Positions 10,776-25,143 of a DNA stretch of 64,000 nt are shown piece after piece. Within the stretch, counting starts at the first letter, position 1. Every line of letters starts with the position of its first letter. Made by a program: the position numbers and the translations under genes. A model generated the notes under the pieces. That model did not search any database. It had not been told where the DNA came from and saw only the letters and a list, made by a program, of their open reading frames with translations. Origin of the DNA: Spirochaetales bacterium (GTDB taxonomy: Bacteria > Spirochaetota > Spirochaetia > SZUA-6 > RPPD01). The stretch spans positions 62,001-126,000 of the forward strand of contig JAFGJO010000043.1 of assembly GCA_016929065.1 (NCBI GenBank). The letters run 5' to 3'.

Positions 10776-12021
10776 CAATATCAATGTGGCGATTATCGGC
10801 GGCGGCCCGGCAGGACTTGCCGCAGCATGTACCCTTTATGAACAGGGGATTTGTGATGTGCATATTTTCGAACGTGAACACGTTTTGGGCGGAGTGTTGT
10901 TTCAATGCATCCATAATGGTTTCGGCATTCATCATTTCAAGGAAGAACTTACCGGTCCTGAATACGCAGAACGGTACATACAGAAAGTGAACAAGACTGA
11001 TACTTTTGTCCATACTGATACCGCTGTGATTGACCTGTATCGTGAAAATGAGGCACTCACCCTTGTACTGCTTGGCAGTAAGGAAGGTTTGCAGGTTTTT
11101 ACAGCCCGTGCAGTGATTCTTGCCATGGGATGCCGGGAACGAAACAGGGGAAACATCAACATTCCCGGCAGCAGACCTGCCGGCATCATGACAGCAGGTT
11201 TCGCCCAGCGCATGGTTAATCTTGAGGGATATCTGCCGGGAAAAGAAATCATCATCCTGGGATCAGGAGACATCGGCCTCATCATGGCACGGCGCCTTTC
11301 GCTTGAAGGGGTCAATGTCCAGGGCGTAGTGGAAATACAGCCGTTTCCCGGAGGGCTTACCCGAAATATTGTCCAATGTCTGAATGATTTTCATATTCCT
11401 CTCTATCTTTCGCACACAATCAGTAATATTTTTGGAAAACAGCGTATTGATAGTGTGGAGATTACTGCCATTGACAATCAGCTCGAGCCGGACACAAAAA
11501 ACAGGTTCACCCTCCCGTGTGACACGCTGCTTCTTTCTGTCGGACTGGTTCCGGAAAATGAACTCTCTGTAAAAGCAGGCGTCATCCTTGATGAAGCAAC
11601 CCGAGGCCCTGTTGTGGACGCCAACTGCATGACCACGGTGCCGGGAATCTTTGCCTGCGGGAATGTTCTTCATGTGCATGACATTGTCGATTATGTTTCG
11701 GAAGAAGCAGCCCGTGCAGCCAGAACAGCCGCACAATTTGTGAACAAATCACTGACAGACAAAGACGGGATACGGATGCTTGCAGGCAACCTTGTCCGGT
11801 ATATGCTCCCGACAAAAGTATATACCGGAAAGCCGACCATTGTGTCGCTGCGCCCCATCACACCGGTTGAAGATATTGTATTGTATGCCAAAAGAAATGG
11901 AGAAATCGTCTATAAAAAGAAATACCAGAAAATTCTGCCGAGTTCCATGATCCAGTTCGAATTGCCTGCTCTCTCCGGCATTGAGCCGGTTGAAGTATTT
12001 TTTGCCGGGGAGGAAACATGA
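10768..12021 (+). CDS. NAD(P)/FAD-dependent pyridine nucleotide-disulfide-type oxidoreductase (second subunit)
   Basis: The 417-residue flavoprotein has two dinucleotide folds. FAD binds near the start (VAIIGGGPAGLAAACTLYEQG) and NAD(P)H in the middle (IIILGSGDIGLIMARRLSLEG). A downstream GIFACGNVLHVHDIVDYVSEE segment is the second FAD motif. It lacks the redox CxxC of disulfide reductases, fitting an electron-transferring partner of the GlpA-like subunit. It overlaps the gene before it and shares ATGA with the DUF1667 gene after it, so the three are translationally coupled. The pair probably passes electrons from an organic substrate to NAD(P) or quinone; the substrate is not shown by sequence. 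Confidence 0.87.
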   Translation: MNNNINVAIIGGGPAGLAAACTLYEQGICDVHIFEREHVLGGVLFQCIHNGFGIHHFKEELTGPEYAERYIQKVNKTDTFVHTDTAVIDLYRENEALTLVLLGSKEGLQVFTARAVILAMGCRERNRGNINIPGSRPAGIMTAGFAQRMVNLEGYLPGKEIIILGSGDIGLIMARRLSLEGVNVQGVVEIQPFPGGLTRNIVQCLNDFHIPLYLSHTISNIFGKQRIDSVEITAIDNQLEPDTKNRFTLPCDTLLLSVGLVPENELSVKAGVILDEATRGPVVDANCMTTVPGIFACGNVLHVHDIVDYVSEEAARAARTAAQFVNKSLTDKDGIRMLAGNLVRYMLPTKVYTGKPTIVSLRPITPVEDIVLYAKRNGEIVYKKKYQKILPSSMIQFELPALSGIEPVEVFFAGEET

Positions 12022-12395
12022 CTGATACCATCATTTGTACGGTCTGTCCCCTCGGCTGCAGTCTGATTGTTGAGCATAAAAACAAAACTATTCAGTCAAT
12101 CTCGGGAAACCGCTGCAAGCGGGGGATTGCCTACGGCGAGCAGGAAATCCTTGATCCAAAACGGGTAGTGACCACTACGGTAAAAATCGACGGGGGAATA
12201 ATCCCGATGCTCTCTGTCAAAACATCGGCCCCTGTTGAACGGGGGAAGATGACAGAAATCGTCCGTTCCGCATCCCAAATGAGGCTTCACGCACCTGTGG
12301 AAATCGGGACGGTTATTGAAAAAAACATCTGTTCCAGCGGGGCAGACCTGATTGCGACCAGAAATGTCGCCAAAATATCCGATTCAGCGTGCTGA
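12018..12395 (+). CDS. DUF1667 domain protein, partner of the GlpA/GlpB-like dehydrogenase
   Basis: A 125-residue cytoplasmic protein beginning MTDTIICTVCPLGCSL. The CxxCxxGC-like cluster, a later cysteine in GNRCKRGIAYG, and the strand pattern RVVTTTVKIDGG are typical of DUF1667 proteins. These are regularly encoded third after the two flavoproteins upstream. The cysteines could bind an iron-sulfur cluster, so it may be the electron-transfer module of the complex, comparable in place to GlpC but unrelated to it. Start and previous stop overlap by four bases. A tRNA promoter follows closely. Confidence 0.85.
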   Translation: MTDTIICTVCPLGCSLIVEHKNKTIQSISGNRCKRGIAYGEQEILDPKRVVTTTVKIDGGIIPMLSVKTSAPVERGKMTEIVRSASQMRLHAPVEIGTVIEKNICSSGADLIATRNVAKISDSAC

Positions 12396-12423
12396 TTTTT
12401 TTCTGAAACTTTTAATGTTCCCC

Positions 12424-12452
12424 TTGCCATTCATTTAGTTTTTCTATATATT
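12424..12452 (+). promoter_or_regulatory. Promoter of tRNA-Gly
   Basis: TTGCCA (12424-12429), 17-base spacer, TATATT (12447-12452). The tRNA begins 16 bases after the -10, so the 5' leader to be removed by RNase P is short. Confidence 0.65.
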
Positions 12453-12467
12453 ATCGAAACATAATTT

Positions 12468-12539
12468 GCGCCTGTGGTATAATGGTTATTACCTCAGCCT
12501 TCCAAGCTGAAGATGTCGGTTCGATTCCGATCGGGCGCT
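12468..12539 (+). tRNA. tRNA-Gly (anticodon TCC)
   Basis: A full cloverleaf can be drawn. The acceptor stem GCGCCTG pairs with CGGGCGC (one G-T pair). The anticodon stem TCAGC/GCTGA carries the loop CTTCCAA with anticodon TCC. The T arm has the standard TTCGATTCC loop. The 3' CCA is not encoded: TGA follows the acceptor strand. It reads GGA, and GGG by wobble. It sits alone between its own promoter and a strong terminator. Confidence 0.96.
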
Positions 12540-12541
12540 GA

Positions 12542-12585
12542 TTTAAAATAAAAAGGACTGCTTCGGCAGTCCTTTTTATTTTAAA
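12542..12585 (+). terminator. Strong intrinsic terminator after tRNA-Gly
   Basis: AAAATAAAAAGGACTGC and GCAGTCCTTTTTATTTT form a perfect 17-bp stem closed by a TTCG tetraloop. Three further A-T pairs at the base give about 20 bp. A and T runs on both sides would let it work in either direction. Confidence 0.92.
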
Positions 12586-12893
12586 ATTGGAGTTTTTTTC
12601 AAGCTTCCTTATTTTTAACAGTACTGCCCTTTTTAAATATATTTATAAAAAATCACTAAAAACTCCATGCGGTTGATTAACAGTACTCTCCCTATATAAC
12701 AACCGTTCCTATTTGTATACTTTCAGGCAATTTAGCTGTAATTCATTAATGAGATAAATTTATACCAAAAGGCACATGGATTCCGCTGTCAGAAAAAACG
12801 ATATTAAAATCAAAAGCAAAAAATAATTGGAAAAAATATGGTTTTTTCCGAGAATATTATTATACATAATTAAATTTATGAAAGAGGATTTTG
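12586..12893 (+). other. AT-rich intergenic region with a direct repeat and a palindrome
   Basis: I see no protein gene here. Two copies of TTAACAGTACT occur at 12615-12625 and 12677-12687. GGAAAAAA/TTTTTTCC forms an 8-bp inverted repeat at 12829-12849, just before TATTAT/TATACAT sequences that could be the -10 of the small gene at 12894. The repeats may be binding sites or part of a small RNA; neither can be shown. Confidence 0.4.
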
Positions 12894-13061
12894 ATGGATG
12901 CAGTACGTTTTGTAAAAGCTTTGGAAAACGTGAAACGGGTGAATGAAGAGTTTAACAGAACAATCGATGAATTTCTGAGAAATAACAACAATTCATCGCA
13001 TTGCTCTGAACTTCAGCACACCGGTTATGCACCAGTACTTCAAGAGAGTAATTCTCTCTGA
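12894..13061 (+). CDS. Small protein candidate, 55 residues
   Basis: ATG at 12894 is preceded by AAAGAGGA at 12881-12888, a good Shine-Dalgarno, and by -10-like TATTAT. The product starts MDAVRFVKALENVKRVNEE, an amphipathic helical stretch with charged residues, and ends in a polar tail. It stops at TGA 13059-13061. There is no signal peptide or membrane segment. I do not recognise it. The case for a real gene rests on the ribosome-binding site, the promoter-like sequence and the otherwise empty region; conservation in relatives would decide. Confidence 0.45.
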   Translation: MDAVRFVKALENVKRVNEEFNRTIDEFLRNNNNSSHCSELQHTGYAPVLQESNSL

Positions 13062-13139
13062 CAGTTTCAAAGCAGTCAGCCCGATTTTCCATATTCTCCC
13101 TTCCCATACATTTTCAATTACAAAAAAAACAGTTTTCAG

Positions 13140-13168
13140 TTGATGATTCCATACAATTGCTGTATAGT
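13140..13168 (+). promoter_or_regulatory. Promoter of the PUR-domain protein gene
   Basis: TTGATG (13140-13145), 17-base spacer, TATAGT (13163-13168). The predicted 5' untranslated region is about 40 bases and contains a purine-rich GGAAGGATGGAA segment before the ATG at 13216. Confidence 0.6.
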
Positions 13169-13215
13169 ATCTTTCAATTTATTATATCAAGTGAATTTGG
13201 GAAGGATGGAAACAA

Positions 13216-13443
13216 ATGGGCCAGAGGGGCGAGTTATTTTCTTCACGGGCGATTACCGGGCGAAGGACCTATTTTTTTAATGTCAAGGAAAACAGAAACG
13301 GCGATGTCTTTCTGAATATCGTCGAAAGCAAAAAAAGCGGTGAAAACGAATTCGAACGCCACTCAATTATCGTATTTCAGGAGGACCTGGAGAGTTTCAT
13401 CCAGGGATTCCATCAGGCAACCGATTTTGTTAAAAAACAGTAA
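13216..13443 (+). CDS. bpuR: PUR-domain (DUF3276) nucleic-acid-binding protein, BpuR-like
   Basis: A 75-residue single PUR repeat. The start MGQRGELFSSRAITGRRTYF, the middle FNVKENRNGDVFLNIVESK and the FERHSIIVFQEDLE segment match the Borrelia PUR-domain protein BpuR in order and spacing. Such proteins dimerise and bind single- and double-stranded DNA and RNA; in Borrelia BpuR represses several genes and its own transcript. The protein ends soon after the domain (FVKKQ), lacking the C-terminal tail of BpuR. The gene has its own promoter and is followed by an unusually repeat-rich spacer. Autoregulation is possible by analogy but not shown here. Confidence 0.85.
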   Translation: MGQRGELFSSRAITGRRTYFFNVKENRNGDVFLNIVESKKSGENEFERHSIIVFQEDLESFIQGFHQATDFVKKQ

Positions 13444-13450
13444 CTGTAAA

Positions 13451-13577
13451 TAAACGGCAGGTAATGGTAAAATTTCTTCTAAAGCCCTTCAGCATGAGCA
13501 TACCGCTACTATGACGCGATATGCTCATGCATTACGGGCTTCAGAGTACCACAAAAACCCACATTACCTGCCGTTTA
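13451..13577 (+). repeat. Nested inverted repeat, copy 1 of the hairpin element
   Basis: Outer arms TAAACGGCAGGTAATG (13451-13466) and CATTACCTGCCGTTTA (13562-13577) are perfectly complementary over 16 bp. Inside, AAGCCC...GCATGAGCATA (from 13482) pairs with TATGCTCATGC...GGGCTT (to 13541). The outer stem starts eight bases after the bpuR stop, so it may protect or end the bpuR transcript. Confidence 0.8.
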
Positions 13578-13802
13578 ATTATTTTATTGACAGTTTGAAA
13601 TCGGGCACCTATTCCATTGAGGGCAGCAGCTTTTAAGTCGCGGTCATCTGCGACATATCGGGCTTTTTTTGACACTCCTTGACATTCAGCATCCTTTTAG
13701 ATTTATTAAAAACCACAATATAATTTACTGGTTTTTTAAATAAAATAGGTTGCCTATTCCATTGAGGGGAATTTACTGAAAGATGCTGAATGAAGTTTAC
13801 AG

Positions 13803-13864
13803 AAAGCCCTTCAGCATAAGCATACCGCTAATATGACGCGGCATGCTTATGCACTTCGGGCTTT
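13803..13864 (+). repeat. Copy 2 of the hairpin element
   Basis: AAAGCCCTTCAGCAT-A-AGCATACCGC begins the copy and CGGGCTTT ends it. It matches copy 1 (13481-13541) almost throughout. Where copy 1 has a G-C pair (GCATGAGC/GCTCATGC), copy 2 has an A-T pair (GCATAAGC/GCTTATGC), so both sides of the stem changed together. The apical CCGCTA[C/A]TATGACGCG is retained. A T-rich stretch follows, so the copy may also serve as terminator on the plus strand. Confidence 0.75.
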
Positions 13865-13919
13865 TATCTTTTTTCTTTGACATCCAGCATCATTTTCAAA
13901 AAAATAATAAATGGAGGAA

Positions 13920-14471
13920 TCAGCTTACCCGGAAGGTTCGGCGGTGGATGGGCGAGAAGCCGTGCTCCTTTATTAGCTCCCGGTGGAGTTTGCTGGGATA
14001 CCCTTTGTGTTTTTCAAACTGAAACACCGGTTCAATCCGTGCATACCGAATCATCCACCGGTCACGGCTGGTTTTTGCGATAATCGATGCAGCCTGAATC
14101 TCCGGAACAAATGAATCGCCCTTGATTACCGGAAAACATTTATAGGGTGAACACGGTATGTATTTTCCGTCCACACAAACGCAGTCCGGCGATGCGTGCA
14201 TATCACGCAGAGCCCGCTTCATGGCAAGAAGTGTTGCGCAGTGAATATTGTACCGGTCGATTTCTTCGTTCCACGCCCAGCCGATACCGACAGCACTCGC
14301 CTTGGACAAAATTATTTCAGCAGCCTGCTCCCGTTTTATCGCTGACAATTTTTTGGAATCATCCAGAATTTCTATGGGAAAATCATCCGGCAGGATCACC
14401 GCGGCTGCAGTCACCGGCCCGGCAAGAGGGCCGCGTCCGGCTTCATCAACCCCGCAAACAATAGTCTTCAT
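13920..14471 (-). CDS. rnhB: Ribonuclease HII
   Basis: A 183-residue enzyme that removes RNA from RNA-DNA hybrids and incises at single ribonucleotides. The N-terminal VCGVDEAGRGPLAGPV contains the first Asp-Glu pair of the DEDD active site and the GRG motif. CVCVDGKYIP, then VIKGDSFVPEIQAASIIAKTSRD supply the remaining acidic residues and the substrate-binding lysine region. The C-terminal HKGYPSKLHRELIKEHGFSPIHRRTF is standard. I place the start at 14471 (MKTIVCG); the longer in-frame reading runs back over the upstream gene. Only one base separates it from the M23 peptidase stop, so the two are co-transcribed. Confidence 0.96.
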   Translation of the reverse strand: MKTIVCGVDEAGRGPLAGPVTAAAVILPDDFPIEILDDSKKLSAIKREQAAEIILSKASAVGIGWAWNEEIDRYNIHCATLLAMKRALRDMHASPDCVCVDGKYIPCSPYKCFPVIKGDSFVPEIQAASIIAKTSRDRWMIRYARIEPVFQFEKHKGYPSKLHRELIKEHGFSPIHRRTFRVS

Positions 14472-14472
14472 G

Positions 14473-15726
14473 CTAAAACGCCGTCTTCCATGGGTGTTCA
14501 AAGTTGGTTTCTTCCCATTGTACCGGATTTGCTTCACGGCCGTTAATCCGCAATTCCCAATGCAGGTGCGGACCGGTTGCAAGTCCGGTATCACCCATCA
14601 CACCAATCTGCTGGTTTCTGGTGACATATTCACCTTCCTGGACAACCAGATAATCCATGTGGCCGTACAGGGTGACAATCCCCTGCCCGTGATCAATGAT
14701 CACCGTATTTCCATACACAAGGAATTCCCGTGCAATAATCACTTTTCCGTAATTCGCAGCATAAATTGGCGTACCGGTCTTGTTCGCGATATCCATTCCC
14801 TTGTGACAGGACGCGACTGAACCGGTTGAATAAACCCGCTGACTCGCAAATGAGGAACTCACCACACCCTCTGAGGGCCGGATAAATTTATCGTACCAGA
14901 ATTTTAATGTGGAATGCGTCGAGATTGCTTCGGCGATGATCCGGCCTTCGGTTTTTCTGCGCTCTGCATTTTTATCCGAGAAAATGGCAACCTTTCCCGA
15001 GGGCACTTCTATCCGCTCTTTTTCAAATGTTCCGGCGGTGACCGACACAAGAAGATTTTCCTCCACCCTGTTTCCGGCAACATCGCTGAACTGGCACAGG
15101 ACAGGTTCTTTTTTCACTGTACTGAATACGGAAACAGGAATGAGGGCCACATAGATGTACTCGGCTTCATCGACCACATCAACAGGGTATTTCATGGTTT
15201 TGAATATCACTGCCGGTTCCCTCAGCTGTTCATCGGCATTGAAATACAGTGCCAGTGTGTCGCCCTGTTTTATGTTCGCTGCGATCATTTTGGTTTCGAT
15301 TTTCGGCGGCGTCCTGTCAATCCAAAACCGTGCCGACCATTCAGTCTTGTGGCTGAAAAGAGCACGGTCATGGACCCTGACCGCCAGTGTATGCGCACCT
15401 TCCGGAAGATCTGCTGTGAGTATCTGTGCCATCCCGTCAAAACTGGTGTCCGAAATTTCAGAGGAGTATACTTGTTCGTTATTGACCAATATTTCTGCCG
15501 AGGCCAAAGATGTTTCTTTATCTTCTGCAGAAAACCTGATTTCATAGGCATCATAAAACCGGTCATTTTCCTGTATCCCCTCGATTTTCAATACAGGAGG
15601 CTGCCCGTCTCTTACTTCCGGAAACAACAAATATGAAGTACCGACAAGCAGAATCAGGCTGAGAACCACTGCGGCGATGACAATAATTTTTCGATTTTGC
15701 AATAAGGCATGTATAGACAATTCCAC
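14473..15726 (-). CDS. Membrane-anchored M23 (LytM-type) peptidase
   Basis: The 417-residue protein has an N-terminal membrane anchor (about residues 13-33, IIVIAAVVLSLILLVGTSYLL). A long beta-rich periplasmic stretch of immunoglobulin-like character follows. The C-terminal M23 domain has the zinc ligands in SCHKGMDIA (His, Asp) and the GPHLHWELRING segment (HLH), plus ILYGHMD-like TLYGHMD. It would cut peptidoglycan cross-links or act as a scaffold for other hydrolases. The start is GTG at 15726, with GAGGGAAG before it. It is followed immediately by rnhB. Confidence 0.92.
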   Translation of the reverse strand: MELSIHALLQNRKIIVIAAVVLSLILLVGTSYLLFPEVRDGQPPVLKIEGIQENDRFYDAYEIRFSAEDKETSLASAEILVNNEQVYSSEISDTSFDGMAQILTADLPEGAHTLAVRVHDRALFSHKTEWSARFWIDRTPPKIETKMIAANIKQGDTLALYFNADEQLREPAVIFKTMKYPVDVVDEAEYIYVALIPVSVFSTVKKEPVLCQFSDVAGNRVEENLLVSVTAGTFEKERIEVPSGKVAIFSDKNAERRKTEGRIIAEAISTHSTLKFWYDKFIRPSEGVVSSSFASQRVYSTGSVASCHKGMDIANKTGTPIYAANYGKVIIAREFLVYGNTVIIDHGQGIVTLYGHMDYLVVQEGEYVTRNQQIGVMGDTGLATGPHLHWELRINGREANPVQWEETNFEHPWKTAF

Positions 15727-24813: not shown

Positions 24814-24879
24814 ATGCATCGCCTTCCTTATTTACGTAAAGAGAAAGATATTCTGTTGTAAAGGGAGTTAAAAATGACA

Positions 24880-24962
24880 TTCCCTGCGCCGGCATTACCC
24901 GTATCAGGTTCGAAGGTCGGAACCACCCATGGTTCCCTCTCAGCCGTTTTCACAGCTCCCTT
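24880..24962 (-). ncRNA. TPP riboswitch (THI element)
   Basis: Read on the minus strand, the element contains GGCTGAGAGGGAACC, the pyrimidine-sensing P2/P3 core, then GAACCTGATACGGGTAATGCC and GCGCAGGGAATG. These are the conserved CUGAGA, CCUGAU and UAAUGCCRGCG-UAGGGAA blocks of the thiamine pyrophosphate aptamer, in the right order. It precedes the thiamine-uptake operon. The 5' strand of the aptamer (AAGGGAG, minus strand 24962-24956) is complementary to CTCCCTT downstream (24867-24861), which gives a plausible switching partner. Confidence 0.96.
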
Positions 24963-25143
24963 ATGCAGTATTTTAATGTCCTCAATTTTCGTCGCTGTGT
25001 CAAGTACAGACCGCGTGAGCTGCCGATGATTTTTGCCTGCTTCACAGGGCGTCTTCCGGAGTCTTGTTTCCCGAAACCTTCACTACAGCAACTGTAATGC
25101 CATGGACGTTTGAGCAGAGCCGAAATTCCTTGCACAACGAGCT

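Follow-up and report, generated by a model that had tools for sequence, protein, structure and literature searches.

Hairpin elements between bpuR and rnhB in a Spirochaetales genome, a candidate family of structured single-stranded elements

What are the two long hairpins that lie between a bpuR-like gene and rnhB in this Spirochaetales genome, and does the protein encoded beside them bind them? The first-pass annotation of the window (the whole stretch of DNA analysed, 64,000 nucleotides) described two copies of a stem-loop with compensatory base changes, took them to reflect selection on an RNA or cruciform structure, and raised BpuR as a possible binding partner; a local duplication with no further copies in the genome would speak against it. 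We propose, with moderate confidence, that the hairpins belong to a small paralogous family of structured elements acting as single-stranded, rnhB-sense nucleic acid, most likely as 3'-UTR RNA of the upstream gene.

The bpuR-rnhB locus

The features of the locus, in window coordinates, are as follows.

13216..13443, plus strand: bpuR-like gene, the neighbour (DUF3276, PF11680; relatives PDB 3nm7 and 3n8b)
13444..13919, no strand: putative insertion or expansion holding all element parts, 476 bp between bpuR and rnhB
13447..13466, no strand: first arm of the copy 1 outer stem, 20 nt with 95% complementarity to 13562-13581
13480..13542, minus strand: core of copy 1 (A), with basal stem GAAGCCC/GGGCUUU, 15-bp upper stem and apex CGC-GUCAUAGUA-GCG
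13562..13581, no strand: second arm of the copy 1 outer stem, pairing with 13447-13466
13608..13698, minus strand: decayed third unit (B), with left part and downstream block as in copy 2, without the rod
13782..13792, no strand: first arm of the copy 2 outer stem, pairing with 13881-13891
13802..13864, minus strand: core of copy 2 (C), laid out as in A, with apex CGC-GUCAUAUUA-GCG
13881..13891, no strand: second arm of the copy 2 outer stem, pairing with 13782-13792
13920..14471, minus strand: rnhB (RNase HII), with the element in its 3' flank and in the same sense

The two genes are convergent, and rnhB adjoins bpuR in this convergent arrangement in 24 of the 25 other bpuR-bearing genomes. 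Their reading frames overlap at the 3' ends by 4-41 nt in 19 of 24 relatives, and the remaining five have 0-139 nt between the frames, against 476 nt in the present genome. This stretch is apparently a lineage-specific insertion with local duplication. As separate observations, the 3'-3' overlap is unusually stable among related genomes (19/24), and the 139-bp gap of genome G009 (L065) also holds palindromic stretches, by eye unrelated in sequence.

The two copies form direct repeats of 61 nt each (13481-13541 and 13803-13863, spacing 322) that are identical at 54 of 61 positions (89%). The 63-mers of A and C fold with z of -7.4 and -6.2, far beyond chance, and on the minus strand no other 63-nt stretch of the 64-kb window folds more stably, while across 444 kb of the same genome they come third and fourth, in agreement with the long common stem-loop first described. 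The further statement that both sides had changed wherever the stem differs was too strong. Of the seven differences between A and C, two make up one doubly changed pair (G-C to A-U), but two others are one-sided stem changes that give G.U on the minus strand and mismatches on the plus strand, and the remaining three are located in loops. With two copies, random substitution produced at least one double change in 12% of simulations (P 0.12), and two-copy covariation was accordingly rejected as proof. The same figure favours a functionless origin in chance palindromes and mutational symmetry, with the hairpins kept matched by template-switch (quasipalindrome) correction; such switching is known to give rise to paired changes. 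We consider this origin very improbable.

Copy 1 lies, as annotated, within a further inverted repeat that is perfect over 16 nt and was matched in none of 2000 shuffles. The outer stem of copy 2 is weaker, with 11 pairs on the minus strand including one G.U (equalled by 36/2000 shuffles), and is not significant when perfect matches only are counted (340/2000). Two accompanying blocks had also been noted, and each does occur twice: CCTATTCCATTGAGGG at 13608-13623 and 13753-13768, and TTGACAT[T/C]CAGCATC at 13679 and 13877. They belong to the decayed unit at 13608-13698, which is homologous to the flanks of copy 2; local alignments of B with C scored 48 and 32, each unmatched in 500 shuffles, and the downstream block common to both is CCCTCAATGGAATAGG. 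Since there are two cores and, in B, a unit with C-like flanks that has lost the rod, the locus is a local, partly decayed duplication.

A third copy and the folded form

Searching the own genome with a plus-orientation covariance model brought up nothing beyond A, C and their reverse strands, and a DNA search with the whole 461-bp stretch found no further copy. The model in the minus orientation, run over the whole genome, identified a third intact copy, D, on the minus strand of contig C58 (C58:25937-25997, 42 bits, E 9.8e-8). The covariance-model search suggested by the annotation has therefore yielded one further intact copy, and the competing account, local duplication with no further copies, is half right: the local duplication is visible, yet D exists. 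Because the assembly is 95.8% complete and in 69 contigs, other copies in this genome may be missing.

D retains the apex CGCGUCAU..GCG and, at the base, GCCC/GGGCUUU, whereas its upper stem, still paired, has for the most part been rewritten; one C.A mismatch falls at the site of the internal loop in copies 1 and 2. When A, C and D are taken together, 66 of 66 scored cells are paired and 7 of 22 pairs have changed on both sides, compared with a mean of 2.3 in shuffles (0/500 as high) and at most one in slid controls. Covarying pairs beyond controls, as looked for in a structured RNA, are thus present as these seven double changes, in a count that draws on three sequences only and on an alignment (A3) fitted to the structure, and so leans towards structure. 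Because of that fitting, the homology of D was tested separately: D is identical to A at 40 of 61 letters, whereas 100,000 palindromes of the same layout gave a mean of 16.5 and a maximum of 36. Across the three copies, conservation is located at the base and apex and not in the upper stem. The full-length elements fold on the minus strand with z of -9 to -14.

Selection on the folded form is supported by these sequence comparisons, and only through the third copy. Chance and mutational symmetry fit this copy poorly, as the apex and basal stem are kept in all three copies with the stem between them rewritten, the identity is far above that of same-layout palindromes, and the mismatches, as described below, are non-random by strand.

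D also has an outer stem of its own, perfect over 17 nt (0/2000 shuffles); with G.U allowed it is slightly longer on the opposite strand (19 vs 17). An outer stem particular to each site is clear in copies 1 and 3 and weaker in copy 2. By eye we had suspected homology between the linkers, which was not significant against shuffles; neither linkers nor outer stems of the three copies aligned above shuffles (outer stems P 0.18-0.58). The shared unit is thus the core, each in a different outer stem, and as the A and C cores are 89% identical while their outer stems and linkers are unalignable, the element in its full length of 123-135 nt may not have been inherited as a single unit. On this evidence the putative family is made up of two intact units and one decayed unit in the window and one intact unit on C58.

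Strand sense, gene context and proposed role

All 22 pairs are intact on the minus strand in both A and C, and their G.U wobbles turn into A.C mismatches when the plus strand is read. For the 61-mers the folding energy is about -37 kcal/mol on the minus strand vs -30 on the plus, and the full elements contain 13 G.U and one A.C mismatch on the minus strand vs five G.U and seven A.C on the plus. The lack of any broken pair on the minus strand has P 0.009-0.035, depending on the transition share, which is modest evidence given that the strand was picked afterwards. Because the non-Watson-Crick pairs are mostly G.U on the minus strand and A.C on the opposite one, a single-stranded minus strand fits better than a DNA cruciform. 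The polarity points to single-stranded nucleic acid of the minus strand, that is, of the rnhB sense, and would fit RNA and single-stranded DNA alike, including a protein that reads single-stranded DNA. Of the earlier suggestion of selection on RNA or cruciform, the folded form has gained support through D, and the cruciform fits less well than a single strand.

All copies lie 3' of a gene and in the sense of that gene. The outer stem of C starts after 28 nt past the rnhB stop codon; D is downstream of a chemotaxis receptor gene (MCPsignal), also with 28 nt from stop codon to outer stem, and 22 nt past its outer stem stands a terminator-like hairpin that has a T tract and the same orientation as the chemotaxis gene. 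Being between a stop codon and a separate terminator-like hairpin, D is probably in a 3' UTR and probably not itself the terminator.

This arrangement bears on the possibility that the window elements are transcription terminators of the convergent rnhB and bpuR, locally duplicated, which we judge to be quite improbable. Their location between convergent genes would suit such a role, as would the T-rich tail of copy 2 on the plus strand (GGGCTTTTATCTTTTTT) and the T-rich tails of the copy 1 outer stem on both strands. The terminator-like site after the C58 copy nevertheless weakens terminator duplication as the sole explanation; a terminator needs neither a fixed apex nor a 60-nt rod, and copy 2 is the one copy whose core alone could serve on the plus strand. 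As read on the minus strand, the cores do not have the GC-rich stem running directly into a U tract that marks an intrinsic terminator, and no long U tract follows them. The terminator scan, whose rule takes loops of 3-8 nt, is silent on the window copies with their 9-nt loops.

A further feature of C58, close to copy 3, is a very long near-perfect hairpin upstream of a sulfotransferase gene (L113 9706-9777), noticed through weak Rfam matches to miRNA precursors.

Read 5' to 3', the element consists of a site-specific outer stem of 11-17 bp, a largely unpaired 5' linker of 16-19 nt, the basal stem GCCC/GGGCUUU, a freely changing upper stem, the fixed apex CGC-GUCAU(N)-GCG, a 3' linker of 9-13 nt and the closing outer stem. 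It would be transcribed in the rnhB sense, and a protein or RNase may read the conserved apex and base, the stems being mere spacers. The element could thereby alter how stable the upstream mRNA is or how it is processed, or release a 3'-UTR or small RNA. The element has probably spread as a foldback repeat, with added local duplication at the bpuR-rnhB locus.

The proposal that BpuR binds the hairpins is not supported. D is not beside bpuR, and relatives that have bpuR are without a convincing element. Bpur of Borrelia is described as binding purine-rich RNA best, with a KD of 13 nM (PMC3764826), and the copies do not have a purine-rich linker in common (only copy 2 has one). With no association with bpuR at D or in relatives, BpuR was rejected as the ligand.

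Distribution and comparison with known repeats

Searches with three covariance models found no convincing copy outside the own genome: R1 in 394 genomes of the class, R2 in 39 relatives and 392 genomes of the phylum, and R3 in 39 relatives and 394 genomes of the class (overlapping sets, each count including the own genome). Among the genomes of the order that were searched, the own genome alone has convincing copies. Each of the three larger model searches had matches with an E of 0.01 or lower in one or two genomes besides the own one, with weak scores (G119, up to 36.6 bits; G343, 23 bits; G493, 25.9 bits), and R3 at a limit of E 1 gave matches of 17-24 bits in six relatives of the order or class. 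The matches of G119 and G343 are AT-flanked terminator-like hairpins that have only the apex in common with the element and are without the GCCC/GGGC base, and those of G493 and the six relatives do not have the shared base-plus-apex layout. All of these were left out because that layout is missing, and a 14-bit match in the own genome was dropped on the same grounds.

The terminator-like hairpins of G119 (L043, L127-L130) are multi-copy, with the apex CCGC-GYCAUUUUA-GCGG, almost that of the present element, and are often preceded by a second hairpin with GAGTTTTC/GAAAACTC arms.

A DNA search of 98 genomes gave seven matches elsewhere (25-55 nt, E 9e-4 to 8e-3), taken as chance, and a pattern scan of named genomes gave five stretches in unrelated taxa that score at most 19.5 bits by the model and were likewise dismissed as chance. 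The viral scans gave no convincing copy of the element; 14 stretches contain the 16-mer block, and one viral match was discarded as lying inside a long ORF and without the rod. The phages searched contained no copy, and the plasmids searched gave a single match, of 46 nt and within phage genes.

A family with three intact copies, all in one genome and with none convincing elsewhere, looks more like a repeat than like a cellular regulator. The main rival to 3'-UTR RNA is non-autonomous foldback mobile DNA of the REP or MITE kind, whose single-stranded hairpin would be read by a transposase or recombinase, any RNA role being secondary; we regard it as possible, if somewhat unlikely. The lineage-specific insertion between genes that overlap in relatives, the dispersed copies and the nesting of the cores in unrelated inverted repeats are all consistent with it. 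The genome also has one Y1 (IS200/RAYT-type) transposase gene, and the wobble polarity, as G.T, is compatible with single-stranded DNA too. Against it, the intact copies number only three, and no two at distant sites are nearly identical; no target-site duplication was recognised by eye, and the ORF list around the C58 copy has no transposase-like gene (by eye, with three proteins searched).

Comparison with particular systems refines this. Like the REP elements of RAYT (Y1) transposases, these are dispersed hairpins in a genome with one Y1 gene, though the cores are longer and the upper stems variable. That single gene (G000:C20:31345-31683, L076) is surrounded by unrelated GGGGACGGAGG repeats, and no model match lies near it. 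MITE/ERIC-type inverted repeats downstream of genes act in RNA, and MITE termini are conserved between copies. Similarly, the present elements are short non-coding foldbacks near stop codons with lineage-specific insertion, but unlike MITEs they differ in outer stem in every copy, only the inner 61-63 nt being common, and terminal inverted repeats common to the copies were not found. A check for empty sites found the gap absent in 19 of 24 relatives, which are too distant for the flanks to be joined, and again no duplication by eye. Integron attC sites, with the boxes R'' RYYYAAC and R' GTTRRRY, share a folded single strand, variable stem sequence and conserved structure with the elements; neither box occurs on either strand of the three.

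The nearest description is of Borrelia plasmids, where Delihas (2009, PMC2674063) describes intergenic stem-loop repeats with compensatory changes. The inverted-repeat motif Sequence #2 lies there <35 bp downstream of genes and is compared by the author to MITEs, and for another motif pair a putative 3' UTR holds a stem-loop that adjoins a terminator-like one; in that account the motifs are plasmid-borne and reported from no other bacteria (PMC2674063). The present elements resemble those described in being intergenic repeats of a spirochaete, with long stems and compensatory changes, a likeness at the level of description. They differ from them in that this locus is beside housekeeping genes on long contigs, and in having a conserved core in site-specific outer stems. 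On Treponema repeat RNA motifs the literature searched held nothing useful, a statement confined to that literature with no wider absence from print claimed.

A stronger form of the 3'-UTR reading, which we think fairly unlikely, is that the elements represent a class of structured 3'-UTR RNA not described before. Its apex (CGCGUCAU..GCG) and basal stem, both fixed, would be carried on freely exchangeable stems within a self-complementary outer stem that differs by site, and would be read by a dedicated RNA- or single-stranded-DNA-binding protein that also spreads the element. If the family is as we propose, it would be a small example of an element selected for its fold while its sequence is replaced, caught in mid-spread and apparently having pushed apart two genes with overlapping 3' ends in most relatives. 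In a lineage that has been little studied, it would also offer an entry to 3'-UTR control or to mobility based on hairpins. If it is no more than a repeat, it is an ordinary one.

Permissive Rfam searches covering 12000-15000 and the C58 locus had, where the elements lie, no matches other than ones far short of the gathering score. At the gathering score, Rfam 15 matched only a tRNA and a TPP riboswitch in the whole window and not the element. The TPP riboswitch lies at 24864-24972 on the minus strand and scores 67.1 bits.
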